From: Desulfurobacterium atlanticum
GTDB taxonomy: Bacteria; Aquificota; Aquificia; Desulfurobacteriales; Desulfurobacteriaceae
Direction of reading: 5' to 3'
Length of the DNA: 64,000 nt
NCBI RefSeq assembly: GCF_900188395.1
Contig: NZ_FZOB01000001.1
Coordinates: forward strand, 124,001 to 188,000
The notes beneath the pieces were generated by a model, which saw only the letters and a program-made list of their open reading frames with translations, searched no databases and was not told where the DNA came from. This document shows positions 9,018-35,200 of this stretch, one piece after another; the stretch's first letter is position 1, and every line of letters starts with the position of its first letter. Made by a program: the position numbers and the translations under genes.

Positions 9018-9625
9018 GTCACTCTGAGGGAGCGCAGCGACCGAAGAGTCTAAAAGGATGAGATTCTTCGGGCTTTGCCCTCAGAATGACATTTTCCCGT
9101 CACTCTGAGGCTACGTAGTAGCCGAAGAGTCTCAAATGAGAACCTTCGGGCTTTGCCCTCAGGACGGTGGATTCTTCGCTGGTGCTTAGAATGACTTCTC
9201 TCTCCTGTCACTCTGAGGGAGCGTAGCGACTGAAGAGTCTGAAAGGATGAGATTCTTCGGGCTTCGCCCTCAGAATGGCATTTTCCCGTCACTCTGAGGC
9301 TACGTAGTAGCCGAAGAGTCTCAAATGAGAACCTTCGGGCTTTGCCCTCAGGACGGTGGATTCTTCGCTGGTGCTTAGAATGACTTCTCTCTCCTGTCAC
9401 TCTGAGGGAGCGTAGCGACTGAAGAGTCTAAAAGGATGAGATTCTTCGGGCTTTGCCCTCAGAATGACATTTTCCCGTCACTCTGAGGGAGCGCAGCGAC
9501 CGAAGAGTCTAAAGTCCTGGCAAAAAAATAGACCCTTCGCCTTGCTCAGGGTGACGGGAAAAAACTCAGGATGAGGGGGAGTGAAAAGTGTTCAGGATGA
9601 CAAAAAGAAAGTGTTCAGGGTTACA
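9018..9625 (+). repeat. Hairpin-repeat array 1 (189-bp tandem composite)
   Basis: Fills the intergenic space after the ABC operon. The element beginning GTCACTCTGAGG recurs with the following C at 9020, 9209 and 9398, a period of exactly 189 bp for about 2.4 copies. Each composite holds several hairpins: an A type (CACTCTGAGG ... CCGAAGAGTC) and B types (GATTCTTCGGG ... CCCTCAGAATGAC). Degraded single elements continue to about 9625. In one frame the array is free of stops, which produces a spurious ORF. Confidence 0.9.
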
Positions 9626-10414: not shown

Positions 10415-10535
10415 GGCTGCGCCCTCAGAATAACATTTTTCCTGTCACTCTGAGGGAACGAAGTGACCGAAGAGTCTCAGATGAGATCCTTCAGGCTTCA
10501 CCTTCAGGATGACAGGAAATACGTTTAGGGTGTCA
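10415..10535 (+). repeat. Hairpin-repeat array 2 (short)
   Basis: About 120 bp between the decayed MNT/HEPN pair and the next pair. It contains a B-type half element (GGGGCTGCGCCCTCAGAAT), one A-type element and another B-type element ending CTTCAGGATGACAGG. Orientation is the same as in array 1. Confidence 0.8.
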
Positions 10536-11065: not shown

Positions 11066-11327
11066 AGAAATTCACACAATAAAAAAATTAGCACAGGATA
11101 TTTTTGGTGAGTGTAAAATCTATATCTTTGGAAGCAGGTTAAAAGACAAAAAGGGGGGAGATATAGATATATATGTTGTTCCAGAAGAAAAAACGAACTT
11201 GTTTAAAAAAAAGTTGAAATTTTCATCCAAGCTTGAAAATTTACTGGGAAAGCCCGTTGATGTTGTTGTAAGCAGGGATATAAATAGGAAAATTGAAAGA
11301 GAAGCTTTAAGAGGAGTAAGATTATAG
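11043..11327 (+). CDS. MNT-domain nucleotidyltransferase (MntA-like antitoxin candidate)
   Basis: A 94-aa minimal nucleotidyltransferase starting with TTG inside the end of the HEPN gene. The active-site motif is FGSRLKDKKGGDID, a GSx8DxD variant, shorter than the canonical GSx10DxD. By analogy with MntA it would AMPylate and silence the HEPN partner. The small overlapping pair, flanked by repeat arrays, looks like a self-contained toxin-antitoxin module. The activity is inference. Confidence 0.8.
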   Translation: MKIRLTDEEIHTIKKLAQDIFGECKIYIFGSRLKDKKGGDIDIYVVPEEKTNLFKKKLKFSSKLENLLGKPVDVVVSRDINRKIEREALRGVRL

Positions 11328-11365
11328 CAACTTGGCAAGATTTTTATCTGGCAACAGGAAAGAAG

Positions 11366-11835
11366 AGATTCTTCGCTGGCGCTCAGAATGACTTCCCTCT
11401 CCTGTCACTCTGAGGGAGCGCAGCGACCGAAGAGTCTCATATCCTGGTAAAGGATGAGATCCTTCACTTCGCTCAGGATGACATTTTCCCGTCACTCTGA
11501 GGGAACGAAGTAGCCGAAGAGTCTCAAATGAGATCCTTCGGGCTGCGCCCTCAGGGCGGTGGATTCTTCGCTGGCGCTCAGAATGACTTCCCTCTCCTGT
11601 CACTCTGAGGGAGCGCAGCGACCGAAGAGTCTCATATCCTGGTAAAGGATGAGATCCTTCACTTCGCTCAGGATGACATTTTCCCGTCACTCTGAGGGAA
11701 CGAAGTAGCCGAAGAGTCTCAAATGAGATCCTTCGGGCTGCGCCCTCAGGGCGGTGGATTCTTCGCTGGCGCTCAGAATGACTTCCCTCTCCTGTCACTC
11801 TGAGGGAGCGCAGCGACCGAAGAGTCTCAAATTTC
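11366..11835 (+). repeat. Hairpin-repeat array 3 (195-bp tandem composite)
   Basis: The GTCACTCTGAGG element recurs with its C at 11406, 11601 and 11796, an exact 195-bp period. Copies appear almost identical, which suggests recent duplication. The composite is related to the 189-bp unit of array 1: A-type and B-type hairpins, then the tail GATTCTTCGCTGGCGCTCAG. The array occupies the whole interval up to the beta-CASP gene, whose start is about 40 nt beyond its end. Confidence 0.9.
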
Positions 11836-11872
11836 ATGGCAAAATCCTCCACAGAGCATAAATTACTTTTCC

Positions 11873-13114
11873 ATGGATATGATGATACCCCTTGGTGGTG
11901 GCAATGAGATAGGTGCAAGTGCCTATCTCTATTTTATAGGCGGAAGAAAGATACTTATTGACTATGGGATAAGGTTTAATAATAAAGAGTCTTTTCCTGA
12001 TCTTGAATTTTTAAAGTCTTTAGCTCCTGAAATTGATGCGATAATTATCACTCATGCACACATAGACCACTGTGGTGCGTTTCATATAGCATCTTCCCTT
12101 TATCCGGACACACCTGTTATAACAACTTTTGAAACAGCAGAACTTTTATCTTTAATGGTTGAAGATGCAATTAAGGTCAGATATATAGGAAGGGAAGAGG
12201 AAAGCTTTACAGAGTATAAGCTGTTTGATGAAGCTTTTTTAAGAATAGAAAGAAAGGATTTCTTTGAGCCGTTTACTTTTGGGGATATTGAGATAACACT
12301 TTTCCCTGCAGGACATATTCTTGGTGCTGCATCTGTTCTTTTTAAATGGGATGGAAAATCTCTCTACCACACGGGAGATATATCCTTAAAAGATCAATTC
12401 ACTGTAAAGGGAGCGGTGTTGCCTGATGAAAAGGTGAATTTTCTCGTTATGGAAAGCACCTACTACTACACAGACAGAGACGGCGGAGATGAAACCTCTC
12501 TTGTTGAAGGTGTAAAGGAAATAGTGGAAAGAAAAGGGAAAATTCTCATTCCTGTTTTTGCCCTTGGAAGGGCTCAGGAGATTATATCTATCTTAAAAGA
12601 AGGTATGATGAAAGGGGAGATTCCGCCGATAAATGTTTATGTTGATGGCCTTGCGAGAGAGGTTTGTAACATTTATGAACATAACATAGATAAAGAGTTT
12701 TTTAACTTCTACATCCAGCCTGCTCCTTTTTACGAAGGGCTTTCTTACGAGGAGGCTTGTGAGGAGAATTTAAGGGAAGCGGACTGTATAATTGCAACAT
12801 CCGGGATGCTTATGGAAAATACTCCCTCCTACATTTACGGGAAATTGATAGGTAAGAGAGCTAATAACGGGATAATATTCAGCGGTTATCTTTCTGAGGA
12901 AAGTTTTGGATACAGACTGCTTAAAGAGAAGAAAAAGCTGAAGAATTTTAAGTGCCAGATACTTAAACATCACCTTTCAGCTCACGGTAGCGGGAAAGAT
13001 TTAAGAATGATAGAAAGTGTGCTTTCTCCTGATAAAGTTATTCTTGTACACGGTTATCCGTCAAAGGAAAAGAGAATCCGTCATGCAGCCAACAGGGAGG
13101 TTGTTTATCTTTGA
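11873..13114 (+). CDS. Beta-CASP metallo-beta-lactamase RNA nuclease family protein
   Basis: A 413-aa cytoplasmic protein. Metal-binding motifs are HAHIDHCG near residue 62, GHILGAAS near 147 and HTGDIS near 165. The beta-CASP part follows: FALGRAQE, then ATSGMLMENTPSYIYGKLI and HHLSAHGSGKDL. This is the CPSF/Ysh1-like family of RNA endo/exonucleases. No clear Shine-Dalgarno precedes the ATG (MDMM), so the start could shift by two or three codons. The next gene overlaps by 4 nt, making a two-gene unit between repeat arrays. Confidence 0.85.
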   Translation: MDMMIPLGGGNEIGASAYLYFIGGRKILIDYGIRFNNKESFPDLEFLKSLAPEIDAIIITHAHIDHCGAFHIASSLYPDTPVITTFETAELLSLMVEDAIKVRYIGREEESFTEYKLFDEAFLRIERKDFFEPFTFGDIEITLFPAGHILGAASVLFKWDGKSLYHTGDISLKDQFTVKGAVLPDEKVNFLVMESTYYYTDRDGGDETSLVEGVKEIVERKGKILIPVFALGRAQEIISILKEGMMKGEIPPINVYVDGLAREVCNIYEHNIDKEFFNFYIQPAPFYEGLSYEEACEENLREADCIIATSGMLMENTPSYIYGKLIGKRANNGIIFSGYLSEESFGYRLLKEKKKLKNFKCQILKHHLSAHGSGKDLRMIESVLSPDKVILVHGYPSKEKRIRHAANREVVYL

Positions 13115-14565: not shown

Positions 14566-14589
14566 CTGCCTGGTTTGTCATTCCCTGTC

Positions 14590-14800
14590 ATCCTGCGTAT
14601 TCCTCTTTTCGTCATTCTGAGGGCGTAGCCCGAAGGATCTCCAAAAACGTCATCCTGAGCGCTTTTCCATTTCGTCATCCTGAGCGCCAGCGAAGGTTCT
14701 CATCTTCCAGACTCTTCGGTCACTACGCTCCCTCAGAGTGACGAAGAAGTGAACATTCTGAGTATTCCCCTTCCGTCATTCTGAGCGATAGCGAAGAATC
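14590..14800 (-). repeat. Hairpin-repeat array 4, fused to the GIY-YIG gene end
   Basis: Single B-type hairpins (CATTCTGAGGGCGTAGCCCGAAGGAT, shortened forms with GCGCCAGC and GCGATAGC) and one A-type hairpin. The orientation is opposite to arrays 1-3. The last element, about 14776-14800, is shared with the coding end of the GIY-YIG gene. Confidence 0.85.
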
Positions 14801-15096
14801 TCACTATCTAAAATACTCTCATAGAGATCCTTCCACTCTGGATTAAAGCGATTTATCAAATCAACCTTAAACTGCCTTTTCTTTCCCTTTAAATACTTTT
14901 CTCTTTTAATTGCTTCCTCAATTGAGTCAAATACTTCATAATAAACCAATTTAGTGCAGTTATACTTACTGGTAAATCCATCAATAAGCTTATTTCTGTG
15001 CTGATAGATTCTTCTTACCAAATCACTTGTAACACCGATATATAAAACTTTGTTGTTTTTATTCGTCACAATATACACAAACCCTTGTTTGCTCAT
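14776..15096 (-). CDS. Single-domain GIY-YIG endonuclease embedded in a repeat array
   Basis: A 106-aa protein with the complete small GIY-YIG fold: VYI and LYIGVTSDLVRRIYQHR at the N terminus (Tyr, YIG and catalytic Arg), then YYEVFDSIEEAIKREKYLKG with a candidate metal-binding Glu. This is the UvrC-N-like, YhbQ-like standalone family. The last residues (EILRYRSE) and the TGA stop are encoded by a repeat hairpin, so the gene is fused to the array. Repeats also start about 30 nt upstream. It is the only gene in 14566-15768. Its role is unknown; acting on the repeats is a hypothesis. Confidence 0.85.
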   Translation of the reverse strand: MSKQGFVYIVTNKNNKVLYIGVTSDLVRRIYQHRNKLIDGFTSKYNCTKLVYYEVFDSIEEAIKREKYLKGKKRQFKVDLINRFNPEWKDLYESILDSEILRYRSE

Positions 15097-15129
15097 AACT
15101 CCATATATTTTTCTGCCGTTTGTGGATTT

Positions 15130-15760
15130 CTCCTTTCGTCATTCTTACCACTTCTATTTTTATCATCCTGAGCCCTTTTCCCTTCCTGTCATCCTGAGGG
15201 TGCAACCCGAAGGATCTCATTCTCTGAGACTCTTCGGCTACTTTGTAGCCTCAGAGTGACAGGAAACGTCATCCTGAGCGAAGCGAAGGATCTCATCCCT
15301 TGAGACTCTTCGGTCACCACGCTCCCTCAGAGTGACAAGAAAAGTGTCATCCTGAGCATTCCCCTTTCCTGTCATCCTGAGCGAAGCGAAGAATCCACCG
15401 TCCTGAGGGTCCAGCCCGAAGGATCTCATCCTTTGAGACTTTTCTGAGACTTTTCGGTCACCACGCTCCCTCAGAGTGACAAGAAAAGTGTCATCCTGAG
15501 CATTCCCCTTTCCTGTCATCCTGAGCGAAGCGAAGAATCCACCGTCCTGATCCAGCCCGAAGGATCTCATCCTTTGAGACTTTTCTGAGACTTTTCGGTC
15601 ACCACGCTCCCTCAGAGTGACAAGAAAAGTGTCATCCTGAGCATTCCCCTTTCCTGTCATCCTGAGCGTTAGCGAAGGATCTCATTCTCTGAGACTCTTC
15701 GGTCGCTGTGCTTCCTCAGAGTGACGAGAAAAGTGTCATCTTTAGGGTGAAATCCCAAGA
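15130..15760 (-). repeat. Hairpin-repeat array 5 (141-144-bp tandem composite)
   Basis: A long array upstream of the GIY-YIG gene. A unit beginning GTCATCCTGAGCATTCCCC recurs at 15346, 15490 and 15631, with periods of 144 and 141 bp (one copy lacks 3 bp). Many elements contain GCGAAGC at the hairpin tip. The orientation is opposite to arrays 1-3. A stop-free frame through it produces a spurious 140-codon ORF. Confidence 0.9.
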
Positions 15761-16439: not shown

Positions 16440-16830
16440 TTCCTATTCTTCTGTTATCCTGAGCATCTTCCCTGTCATTCTGAGGGCGCAGCCCTAAGAA
16501 TCCCATTTGAGACTCTTCGGTCGCTATACTCCCTCAGAGTGACAGAGGAAGAGTCATTATGAATTTTATTTCTTTGTCATCCTGAGCAAAGCGAAGGATC
16601 TATTTTTTCACCAAGACGTGAGACTCTTCGGTCGCTGTGCTCCCTCAGAGTGACGGGAAAAGCGTCATTCTGAGTGCCTCCATTTCGTCATCCTGAGCGC
16701 AGCGAAGAATCTATCCCTTGAGACTCTTCGGTCGCTGTGCTTCCTCAGAGCGACGGTAGAGGAAAGTCATCCTGAACATTTCCCTTTCCGTCATCCTGAG
16801 GGCCCAGCCCGAAGAATCTATTCTACCGAA
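16440..16830 (-). repeat. Hairpin-repeat array 6
   Basis: About 390 bp of non-tandem A-type and B-type hairpins, for example GACTCTTCGGTCGC-type and GCAGCCCTAAGAAT forms, mixed with degraded single arms. Orientation is as in arrays 4-5. It fills the gap between the phosphoglycosyl transferase and the MNT gene. I see no other gene in it. Confidence 0.85.
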
Positions 16831-16834
16831 ATTC

Positions 16835-17119
16835 TTATAATTTCACTCCCTTTAGAGCTTCCCTTTCAATTTTTCTATCTGTATTTCTGTTTACCACAAC
16901 ATCAACAGGTTTTCCCAGTAAATTTTCAAGTTTAGATGAGAGCTTTAACTTTTTTTTGAAGAGATTTGATTTTTCCTCTGGAACAATATATATATCTATA
17001 TCTCCTCCTTTTTTTTCTTTTAATCTGCTTCCAAAAATATATACTTCACAATCTCCAAAAATATCCTGTGCTAATCTTTTTATAGCAAGTATTTCTTCAT
17101 CTGTAAGCCTTACTTTCAA
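16835..17119 (-). CDS. MNT-domain nucleotidyltransferase (second copy)
   Basis: A 94-aa paralogue of the protein at 11043-11327; by hand comparison more than 80% of residues are identical. The motif FGSRLKEKKGGDID is again the GSx8DxD form. It overlaps its HEPN partner by 23 nt, exactly as in the other copy. The pair is in inverted orientation relative to the first. Its predicted role is antitoxin/AMPylase of the neighbouring HEPN protein. Confidence 0.8.
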   Translation of the reverse strand: MKVRLTDEEILAIKRLAQDIFGDCEVYIFGSRLKEKKGGDIDIYIVPEEKSNLFKKKLKLSSKLENLLGKPVDVVVNRNTDRKIEREALKGVKL

Positions 17120-17549
17120 TTTTTTTTACCACCTTTATGAGTGTTGGTGCGTTTTCTATTAAGAAATTTATGGCTTCAATTTTCTCCAGTATTTCATCTG
17201 GATAATCATGTGCAAGTAAATTTCTTATTTTCCTGAATTGACTCCATGTATCAATATCAATTATACCTTCTTTTTCTATTTCTCTCAGGAGTTCCAGAAA
17301 TGTTTTACCTTCTGTTATGTATCCTGTATGATTTAAAAACTCTCTAAATATTCTGGAGCCAAGAAGATCCTGTAACTTTGAAAATCTAAAAGCAAGAGCG
17401 TCAAGTATATCCTTCTGAGAAGATGTTAAATTGCTAAATTTCTCTATGTTAAGTGGATACAAAGGTCTCAATCTTTCAAGAACATTATTTAACCTTTCCA
17501 CGTGGCTTTGAGCTTCTTTTAAATAAGATTGCAGTCTGTCTATCGCCAT
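17097..17549 (-). CDS. HEPN-domain protein (second copy, HepT-like)
   Basis: A 150-aa paralogue of 10613-11065, with most residues identical, including RNLLAHDY (Rx4HxY). I placed the start at MAIDRL, the position conserved in both copies; in this copy an in-frame ATG five codons upstream (17564) is open, whereas the first copy has a stop there. It is probably the ribonuclease-type toxin of the pair. Confidence 0.8.
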   Translation of the reverse strand: MAIDRLQSYLKEAQSHVERLNNVLERLRPLYPLNIEKFSNLTSSQKDILDALAFRFSKLQDLLGSRIFREFLNHTGYITEGKTFLELLREIEKEGIIDIDTWSQFRKIRNLLAHDYPDEILEKIEAINFLIENAPTLIKVVKKIESKAYR

Positions 17550-17609
17550 CTGCTGCTTTTCCATTTAATTTTATTTGAAATTTATACCAGGAAGGTTGTT
17601 TTTCAAATT

Positions 17610-18186
17610 CTCCTGTCATCCTTGGTGCCAGTAAAGAATTTCATTCATAATCCTTTAGAGACTCTTCGGTCACTACGTTCCCTCAGAGTGACAGGAAAAA
17701 CGTCATCCTGAGCATTTCCCTTTCCGTCATTCTGAGCGAAGCGAAGAATCCACCGTCCTGAGGGCGCAGCCCGAAGGATCTCATTCCTTGAGACTCTTCG
17801 GCTACTTTGTAGCCTCAGAGTGACGGGAAAGTGTCATCCTGAGTGCTCCATTTCGTCATCCTGAGCGGAGCGAAGGATCTATCCCTTGAGACTCTTCGGT
17901 CACTACGTTCCCTCAGAGTGACGAATAACAACTCATCCTGTGCATCCCTCTTTTCGTCATCCTGAGGGTGCAGCCCGAGGGATCTCATTCTTTGAGACTC
18001 TTCGGTCGCTGTGCTCCCTCAGAGTGACGAGAAAAGCGTCATCCTGAGCATTTCCCTTTCCGTCATTCTGAGCGAAGCGAAGGATCTCATCCCTTGAGAC
18101 TCTTCGGTCGCTGTGCTCCCTCAGAGTGACGAGAAAAGCGTCATCCTGAGCCCCCCCTTCCGTCATTCTGAGCGAAGCGAAGAATC
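17610..18186 (-). repeat. Hairpin-repeat array 7
   Basis: About 580 bp between the second HEPN/MNT pair and manC, containing at least five A-type hairpins (GACTCTTCGGTC ... CTCAGAGTGAC) alternating with B-type hairpins, several with GCGAAGC tips. The last element abuts the manC stop codon. Its downstream position means a transcript of the polysaccharide operon would end in this array. Confidence 0.9.
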
Positions 18187-33744: not shown

Positions 33745-33990
33745 AAAGGGGAGATTCTTCGCTTTGCTCAGAATGACTTTGGTTTCAGGAGATCCTTCGG
33801 GCTACGCCCTCAGGATGACGTTTCCTTGTCACTCTGAGGGAATGTAGTGACCGAAGAGTCTAGTGTGAAGGAGAGACTTTTGCTGGTGCTCAGAATGGCT
33901 TTGGTTTTAGGAGATTCTTCGGGCTACGCCCTCAGGATGACGAAAAAGGGGGAGTGCTCAGGATGACGAAAAAAGAGGGTCAGGATGGCG
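33745..33990 (+). repeat. Hairpin-repeat array 8
   Basis: About 245 bp: B-type hairpins with CGGGCTACGCCC tips, one A-type hairpin (GTCACTCTGAGGGAATGTAG) and decayed arms. Orientation is as in arrays 1-3. The same block, with few changes, recurs at about 34890-35070. Between 33990 and the gene end at 34055 I see nothing. Confidence 0.85.
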
Positions 33991-34889: not shown

Positions 34890-35200
34890 CGGAAAAGGGA
34901 TTCTTTGGACTGTGTCCTCAGGATGACGTTTCCTTGTCACTCTGAGGGAACGTAGTGACCGAAGAGTCTAGTGTGAAGGAGAGACTTTTGCTGGTGCTCA
35001 GAATGGCTTTGGTTTCAGGAGATCCTTCGGGCTACGCCCTCAGGATGACGAAAAAGGGGGAGTGCTCAGGATGGCGGAAAAGGGAGTGGTCTGGATGACT
35101 TGTTACCCGTCACTCTGAGGTGCTATGCACCGAAGAGTCTCTAAAGAATGAGATCCTTCGCTTCGCTCAGGATGACGGAATGGAGGGCGCTCAGAAGGAC
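34890..35200 (+). repeat. Hairpin-repeat array 9
   Basis: About 310 bp. The first 180 bp nearly repeat array 8. It also has an A-type variant with a shortened tip (CTGAGGTGCTATGCACCGAAGAG), in which GGTGC pairs with GCACC by plain Watson-Crick pairing, and a B-type GATCCTTCGCTTCGCTCAGG form. Confidence 0.85.

Follow-up and report, generated by a model that had tools for sequence, protein, structure and literature searches.

Is a small nuclease gene that lies among hairpin repeats a partner of those repeats, or does it merely happen to sit there? The question is raised by a locus within a stretch of 64,000 nucleotides from Desulfurobacterium atlanticum (here called the window), in which a gene for a GIY-YIG nuclease stands inside an array of hairpin repeats. 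An earlier note on this DNA had proposed that nuclease and repeats form a new system, a parallel solution to that of the RAYT transposases and their REP elements.

The nuclease is the only non-repeat gene between 14566 and 15768, as the earlier note had it. Its reading frame is intact, with no internal stop, and matches PF01541 at 74.3 bits against a cut-off of 22.6, GIY-YIG being the sole domain detected in the 106 residues; the remaining open reading frames of at least 50 aa between the flanking genes are repeat translations or frames that overlap the nuclease or its neighbour. The GIY-YIG superfamily is defined by conserved Tyr, Tyr, Arg, Glu and Asn, and the window protein has both the domain and Y8, Y19, R29, E66 and N85. 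These five, together with G21 and H33, are invariant across 63 aligned relatives and are presumably the catalytic residues. The AlphaFold model has a mean pLDDT of 93.4, and its best Foldseek match is PDB 1zg2 (BH0048/UPF0213; E 3e-4), with weaker matches to Slx1 (E 0.006 and weaker) and UvrC (E 0.1 and weaker); the window nuclease has the GIY-YIG fold in common with 1zg2, Slx1 and the UvrC N-domain. A sequence search of the PDB at E values up to 0.01 returned 1zg2 alone (E 0.001). The C-terminal ten or so residues (...DSEILRYRSE) are encoded by the repeat at 14775-14800, so that the REILRFAQND-like tail which the earlier note gave for such proteins was right in kind.

The repeat unit is a GTCATYCTGAG...GAAGRATC hairpin, found on both sides of the nuclease. 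Seven full units lie between 14611 and 15681 (Table 1), in agreement with the claim that repeats flank the gene on either side; interspersed among them in the flanking arrays are partial units and CTCAGAGTGAC half-units, the partner half-units being present in the 5' array at 15161..15759. The 5' array also contains two identical 118-nt stretches and has therefore undergone a recent local duplication. Clustering the core matches in the window at 600 bp gives 11 clusters, so the "ten more arrays" of the earlier note can stand if small ones are counted, two of them having one or two matches.

Table 1. Positions in the window of the nuclease gene and of repeats of its hairpin family.
Feature	Position	Strand	Basis
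Single-domain GIY-YIG nuclease ORF, intact, 106 aa	14776..15096	-	PF01541 profile match and ORF translation
GTCATTCTGAGCGATAGCGAAGAATC hairpin unit, overlapping the nuclease ORF at its 3' end	14775..14800	+	
Array 3' of the nuclease (full unit 14611-14639 and partial units)	14586..14800	+	
Array 5' of the nuclease (full units at 15188, 15268, 15371, 15515, 15656)	15161..15759	+	
Full hairpin units	14611-14639, 14775-14800, 15188-15216, 15268-15292		pattern search
Full hairpin units, continued	15371-15395, 15515-15539, 15656-15681		pattern search
118-nt pair, 100% identical, starts 141 nt apart	15410-15527 and 15551-15668 (span 15410..15668)	+	
Other arrays of the same repeat family	9018..9576, 11382..11805, 16474..16802, 17682..18174	.	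core clustering
Other arrays of the same repeat family	33767..33968, 34917..35177, 36029..36181, 37115..37421	.	core clustering
Small cluster, 2 core matches	42241..42252	.	core clustering
Single half-unit	10444..10455	.	core clustering

Across the 1.74 Mb genome there are 92 copies of GTCATYCTGAG, 49 forward and 43 reverse, and none of a reversed control pattern. None of 78 cores lies wholly within any of 27 hand-listed ORFs, which span 69% of 8.0-44.6 kb; ORFs that look like translated repeats, among them 11322-11918 with the array that it spans, were left off the list. The genome has two Y1 transposase genes, at 129.6 and 137.0 kb of contig C4. The window is on C1 and therefore holds neither of them, as the earlier note's statement that no RAYT gene is present would have it; the GTCATYCTGAG copies on C4, at 53.9-56.5 kb, are over 70 kb from either Y1 gene.

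The island at 15769-42069 encodes surface polysaccharide synthesis, with the repeat arrays sitting between genes; the gene types, from 11 scanned ORFs, include a sugar transferase, a ManC-type gene, glycosyltransferases, UDP-galactopyranose mutase, a flippase and an STT3-like gene. A small nucleotidyltransferase gene and its partner gene (16835-17119 and 17097-17564) lie between repeat arrays, and the partner resembles PF08780 weakly, below that family's cut-off.

The window repeat is made up of an outer stem of 5 bp, a GA/GA internal loop, a variable inner stem and a TCTC-like tail. In 201 copies of GTCATYCTGAG..GAAGRATC pooled from the loci collected, the free pair of the outer stem is T-A in 132, C-G in 59 and mismatched in 10, and in the window units alone 25 of 32 are paired and 7 mismatched; the outer stem thus shows compensatory change. 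An inner stem can be made out by eye and in predicted folds. Its covariation shows no excess over shuffled halves, at 0.85 versus 0.82 (distinct segments) in one count and 0.74 versus 0.78 and 0.23 versus 0.27 in a second, but the regular expressions used for these counts probably mis-cut the inner segment. Where a nuclease has hairpins on both sides, the nearest ones most commonly have GTC outward (38 of 57 such loci in the first of the two locus sets described below, 51 of 68 in the second); the window locus departs from this layout, its nearest full units on the two sides having the same direction.

A protein search of 136 genomes of the window's phylum found relatives in three: the window's own genome (G000), a second genome of the genus (G125, 74% identity) and one of another family (G102, 68%). 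All three nucleases sit within repeat arrays. The repeat pattern is present in seven of the 136 genomes, namely G000 (53 copies), G125 (30), G126 (10), G100 (251), G102 (152), G104 (205) and G053 (one copy), that is, in 3 of 3 genomes with the nuclease versus 4 of 133 others. That the repeats always need the nuclease is ruled out by G100, a single contig whose sole GIY-YIG protein is of UvrC length; G104 also has no nuclease, in an assembly that is 82% complete. The G125 nuclease is at 243 kb, and the sugar transferase neighbouring the window nuclease matches contig C1 of G125 near 261 kb, among the matches listed. Over the regions compared (236-250 and 256-270 kb), the neighbours of the nuclease seem to differ between the two genomes, which fits rearrangement and movement alike.

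The G125 nuclease neighbourhood reads as a surface-polysaccharide locus from its ORFs, read without a family search, and ORF reading also gives similar nucleotidyltransferase/partner pairs in the G125 island (L223 4932-5689 and 8278-9008). A flippase-like ORF there (L223 9648-11138) contains an in-frame stretch like translated repeats (HSERSEES), which recalls Rickettsia palindromic elements.

Linkage was then considered across phyla, in a first sample made up of the best 80 of 428 confirmed candidates, picked by likeness to the window's protein; 65 of these loci are titled to 20 NCBI phyla and 15 are without phylum. The density of GTCATYCTGAG is 0.977 copies/kb within 200 bp of the nuclease and 0.015/kb at 5-10 kb, with the reversed control at zero in every distance bin, and the motif lies within 500 bp of the nuclease at 15 of the 80 loci. 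A motif-free count of enriched 8-mers found CATTGCGA near 47 of the 80 against 4.0 expected, and many of the other loci bear a sister repeat, GTCATTGCGAG..GAAGCAATCT. The label dRS3-like is used below for GTCATTCCYGC..GCRGGAATC, taken to be the dRS3 sequence.

In a generic scan for hairpins of any 3-nt tag and 5-bp stem, with the expectation taken from 1.5-10 kb away, the top class was GTC followed by AT, with 229 hairpins within 400 bp of the nucleases against 11.4 expected. Such a GTC-AT hairpin occurs within 400 bp at 74 of the 80 loci (on both sides at 57); among 715 control blocks of like shape taken elsewhere in these loci, 76 have one. Of the named phyla, 19 of 20 are represented in the 74 loci; the exception is the Planctomycetota locus, which has no hairpin. 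For 50 of the loci we also took the expectation from each genome's own density: GTCATYSYGAG..RATC is within 400 bp at 38 of them versus 0.88 expected, with 90 copies near these nucleases versus 0.90 expected. The motif occurs at least once in 49 of those 50 genomes, some of which have just 1-6 copies. Chance as the source of the linkage is ruled out by the reversed controls, the distance enrichment and the control blocks. The earlier note asked whether distance and presence correlate beyond chance; both do, in these loci and in the genomes of the window's phylum.

In a plasmid collection, 33 records have a nuclease match, and 8 of the 10 loci examined have GTC-AT hairpins within 500 bp, including those of N. 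gonorrhoeae (dRS3-like) and of Shinella and Rhizobium (GTCATCCTCGGGCTTGACCCGAGGATCCA and the like); the Novosphingobium and R. tumorigenes loci have no GTC-AT hairpin within that distance. Among viral contigs there were 221 pattern matches, one of which encodes a relative (45% identity). On a Planktothrix agardhii plasmid (L212), the nuclease and GTCATYCTGAG-type repeats have an MmeI-type restriction enzyme on one side and DISARM drmA on the other.

The second sample consisted of 245 genomes from the phylum of a Thermodesulfovibrio genome (G143, the source of locus L045). A nuclease match at 1e-12 was found in 80 of them, 61 strong and 19 weak by a split at 1e-25 that was set after the scores were seen. 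The median number of repeat copies is 14 in the strong genomes versus 3 in each of the other groups (weak match; no match), and at least ten copies are present in 37 of 61 strong genomes versus 31 of 184 others (Fisher 3e-10, ignoring relatedness). Repeat number thus goes with nuclease presence, a relation that the earlier note had asked about, but not strictly, for besides G100 there are 18 among the 165 genomes without a nuclease match that have at least 20 pattern copies, up to 258. Nineteen of the 61 strong genomes had fewer than five copies of GTCATYSYGAG, which made co-occurrence look weak at first. A GTC hairpin nevertheless adjoins 19 of the 20 nuclease loci from these low-copy genomes, mostly of another class (for example GTCATTCCCGC..GCGGGAATCCA), and class therefore matters. 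Overall, a GTC-AT hairpin lies within 400 bp at 75 of 80 second-sample loci. The 85 strong matches supplied these 80, the other five being L040, L045, L048 and L075, already in the first set, and the short G385:C102. No such hairpin is present at 6 of 80 nucleases in the first set and 5 of 80 in the second. The pairing is not obligate, as the 251 copies in G100 show.

The nuclease itself differs with the repeat that it accompanies. A tree of 83 nucleases was built from 96 columns; its resolution is low, with 15 of 78 branches starred. Placed on it, repeat class takes 15 changes over the 76 rows that carry a label (7 were dropped), versus a shuffled mean of 30.3 and a minimum of 25 in 300 shuffles, while phylum needs 36 changes (65 rows) versus 49.5 when shuffled. 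With class shuffled within phylum, 0 of 500 trials came as low as the observed count (58 rows). Nuclease sequence tracks repeat class better than it tracks host phylum.

The four residues after a REKxxK motif vary by class: they are xGSR in 39 of 43 TTGC loci and in 0 of 18 NCTGA loci, two of the latter lacking the motif. The most class-informative alignment positions are 72, 73, 71 and 76 in the first set and 16, 71, 76, 73, 72 and 14 in the second; the window nuclease has G71 K72 K73 F76 (GKKR type). Combining 163 loci, of which 145 have a class and the 18 without were dropped, the residues at 71-72 go with TTGCGAG when GG (31/31), AG (18/18) or SG (3/3), with NCTGAG when GK (8/8) or GW (17/20), with the dRS3-like class when KW (30/33) and with CYGGCTTG when NM (9/9). 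These counts use class definitions that were revised with the data in view and partly made after seeing it, and residue positions in a tree-structured family can follow class through descent alone, relatedness being partly controlled here. Trained on the first set, residues 71-73 predict the class correctly at 52 of 57 loci of the second, with 13 of 70 unpredicted, against a baseline of 14 of 70 for the first set's commonest class and 30 of 70 for the second set's own; 9 Nitrospirota loci belong to the first set, and the two sets may share close relatives.

Several genomes carry two to four nucleases of differing type, mostly beside their own class. G224 has SGSR with TTGCGAG, GWLR with NCTGAG and KWRR with dRS3-like hairpins, and G342 has KWKR with dRS3-like and NMSR with CYGGCTTG; G383 and G207 are also multi-type, the KWKR copy of G207 being without a hairpin within 400 bp. 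The same matching appears genome-wide among the 245 genomes. The dRS3-like median is 10 in 24 KW-only genomes versus 1 in 17 GSR/GW-only genomes, and the GTCATYSYGAG median is 4 versus 32 (p = 0.0003 and 0.0002 respectively, with relatedness ignored and the grouping of types chosen after the locus survey). Medians of dRS3-like and GTCATYSYGAG copies are 45 and 74 in seven genomes with both nuclease types, 0 and 3 in the 184 without a strong nuclease, and 1 and 6 in 13 with other types or an unreadable motif. Exceptions to the double dissociation are G192 (GWKR), with 11 dRS3-like and 0 GTCATYSYGAG copies, and G320 (KWRR), with 0 and 2. Each type of enzyme beside its own type of repeat recurs in about twenty bacterial groups. 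The pairing is real and general, and the window locus is a member of it with its own repeat class.

At two sites, comparison of occupied and empty forms shows that units flanked by hairpins have been gained or lost. In Azospirillum lipoferum 4B, a unit of hairpin dimer, nuclease and hairpin dimer stands between sufB and sufC and is absent in A. oryzae, A. ramasamyi, A. sp. B510 and A. argentinense, the hairpins being located at the extremities of the extra segment or no more than some tens of bases from them. In Sinorhizobium meliloti Ak57, a nuclease and a broken second copy stand between gltA and lpxB in an extra segment that starts and finishes in REPs, where strain K101 has a REP-like stretch of about 80 bp in place of about 775 bp. 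At both empty sites the alignments place the unit ends approximately and leave target duplications unreadable, and recombination between repeats accounts for both as well as transposition would. A similar comparison of Shinella WSC3-e with H4-D48 involves sequences too diverged for reading. In Shinella sp. PSBB067 (L220), a further nuclease relative lies inside the sufB-sufC match, in the same place as in A. lipoferum.

The pairing of nuclease and repeat is most likely already known in kind. Chenal and colleagues are said to have described, in Nature Communications in 2025, the Ssn family of GIY-YIG site-specific nucleases of single-stranded DNA with their NTS repeats; cognate genomic repeats, a Neisseria repeat and thousands of homologues reportedly form part of that work. 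We take the window nuclease to be a member of the Ssn family and its N. gonorrhoeae relative (53.8% identity, E 9e-25 by tblastn) to be the published ssn; the latter sits among GTCATTCCCGC..GCGGGAATC hairpins, which presumably are dRS3. The window protein is like Ssn, as the family is reported, in being a single-domain GIY-YIG protein of about 100 aa, in having repeats both genome-wide and beside the gene, where the repeat would be the enzyme's target, and in being homologous to a Neisseria protein that lies among its own repeats. It is unlike it in being a GKKR-type enzyme with GTCATYCTGAG hairpins, which by analogy may be cleaved as single-stranded DNA. The word "new" in the earlier note consequently has to be given up, if Ssn is as reported. 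No paper tying GIY-YIG nucleases to REP-like repeats was found among the literature matches listed. The present analysis adds, subject to the content of the Ssn paper, a likeness to CGTC REPs, the quantified matching of classes and an apparent residue code; it also measures how widely the pairing is spread over phyla.

RAYT-REP systems pair REP-associated tyrosine (Y1/HuH) transposases with tagged hairpin repeats. The window likewise has one small nuclease gene flanked by hairpins of a tagged class with copies scattered over the genome; unlike them, its enzyme is of the GIY-YIG and not the Y1/HuH kind, and no Y1 gene is beside its repeats. The comparison drawn in the earlier note is thus fair for anatomy, whereas spreading by the nuclease is something that we infer from that anatomy and from the empty sites.

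The repeats also resemble the CGTC-tagged REPs, which Di Nocera, De Gregorio and Rocco reported in 2013 without a dedicated transposase (PMC3733652). These have a CGTC (or TGTC, CCTC) tag and AT first stem pairs; in the four families described, stems are 8-9 bp long, loops 4-5 nt, and the tail is mostly CCA (PMC3733652). The term GIY-YIG occurs nowhere in PMC3733652. The window units, reading TGTCATCC and CGTCATYC, have the tag and the AT first stem pairs, and the two groups are further alike in clustering in some hosts. The window units, with an outer stem of just 5 bp, a GA/GA internal loop and a tail like TCTC, differ from the published stem, loop and tail; many repeats beside other nucleases do fit an 8-9 bp stem, 4-5 nt loop and CCA tail.

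The reading that we favour, and consider rather probable, makes the nuclease and the GTC-tagged hairpins cognate partners. They are physically linked in 19 of the 20 named phyla sampled, their classes match within single genomes, a few nuclease residues (71-73, 76, also 14/16) track the class, the stem shows compensation and units are gained or lost at two sites. The GIY-YIG protein likely recognises its own hairpin class (in the window, GTC with an ATYCT stem and GAG..GAAG). It may plausibly, by analogy, cut the cognate hairpin while replication, conjugation or DNA uptake exposes it as single-stranded DNA. Cutting followed by repair or recombination could possibly let the unit and its repeats spread, and the dispersed repeats would then be non-autonomous copies able to outlive the nuclease. 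A further proposal, which we advance tentatively, is that the CGTC-type repeats across Bacteria are the non-autonomous members of an element family whose autonomous form is a GTC hairpin, the nuclease and an inverted GTC hairpin, moving by way of single-stranded DNA without HuH or DDE enzymes. Each nuclease would read its class of hairpin by a short loop, with residues 71-73 and 76, and 14/16 besides, as the specificity code. If so, the nuclease would supply the missing "dedicated transposase" of the CGTC REPs.

The alternative that deserves most attention is that the nuclease cuts incoming single-stranded DNA at repeats, in defence or in control of transformation, and so modulates uptake of DNA and its recombination around variable surface genes, the spread of repeats being incidental. 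Such a role is reported for Ssn in Neisseria, and the window island is a surface-polysaccharide locus, as is, by its ORFs, the G125 nuclease neighbourhood. A ComEC-type competence domain is found in five of five genomes tested; it is there with the nuclease (G000, G125, G102) or without it (G100, G104), and so does not discriminate. We regard this alternative as conceivable and on the whole somewhat doubtful as the main role, and since one cut could serve both defence and spreading, its probability overlaps that of the cognate pair.

It is also imaginable that the nuclease gene is mobile but unrelated to the repeats, having happened to land in, or recombine into, repeat-rich intergenic hot spots. 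The REP-like stretch that K101 has where Ak57 has its nuclease would suit such hitch-hiking, as would the repeats in genomes without a nuclease. A passive rider would not be expected to match its class within single genomes, as in G224, G342, G383 and G207, nor to show the residue-class match and the double dissociation, and we think this improbable. A homing endonuclease that targets the repeats in double-stranded DNA would account for the presence and absence of the unit in Azospirillum and Sinorhizobium, and GIY-YIG homing enzymes do exist, but the 106 residues have just the GIY-YIG domain and the flanks are a repeated hairpin, not a split unique target; this too is quite improbable. As for the hairpins being terminators or mRNA stabilisers, with the nuclease incidental or acting on RNA, their avoidance of the listed ORFs and their frequent position at the 3' end of the nuclease gene fit. 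Their near-equal orientation in the genome does not, nor do stem classes that vary while the GTC tag stays constant, and the pairing with a nuclease would go unexplained, making this a very remote alternative.

If the proposed working of the cognate pair holds, there is now an enzyme for a large set of hairpin repeats in bacteria to which the 2013 survey could assign none, and a specificity code at the level of residues for a very small nuclease family. There would then be a second, RAYT-independent solution for keeping and spreading hairpin repeats, and candidate enzymes for cutting defined sites in single-stranded DNA.

The hairpin family also occurs in another form elsewhere in the genome of the window (L003-L021), as more than ten dispersed, MITE-like elements of about 165-190 bp. 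Their end motif has no match within the window, allowing up to 3 mismatches. In each, two head-to-head hairpins of the same family lie within terminal inverted repeats, GAGNSTGTTTGAAAA..TTTTTCAAACASYCTC, and eight copies are 70-92% identical to L005 in ungapped comparison.
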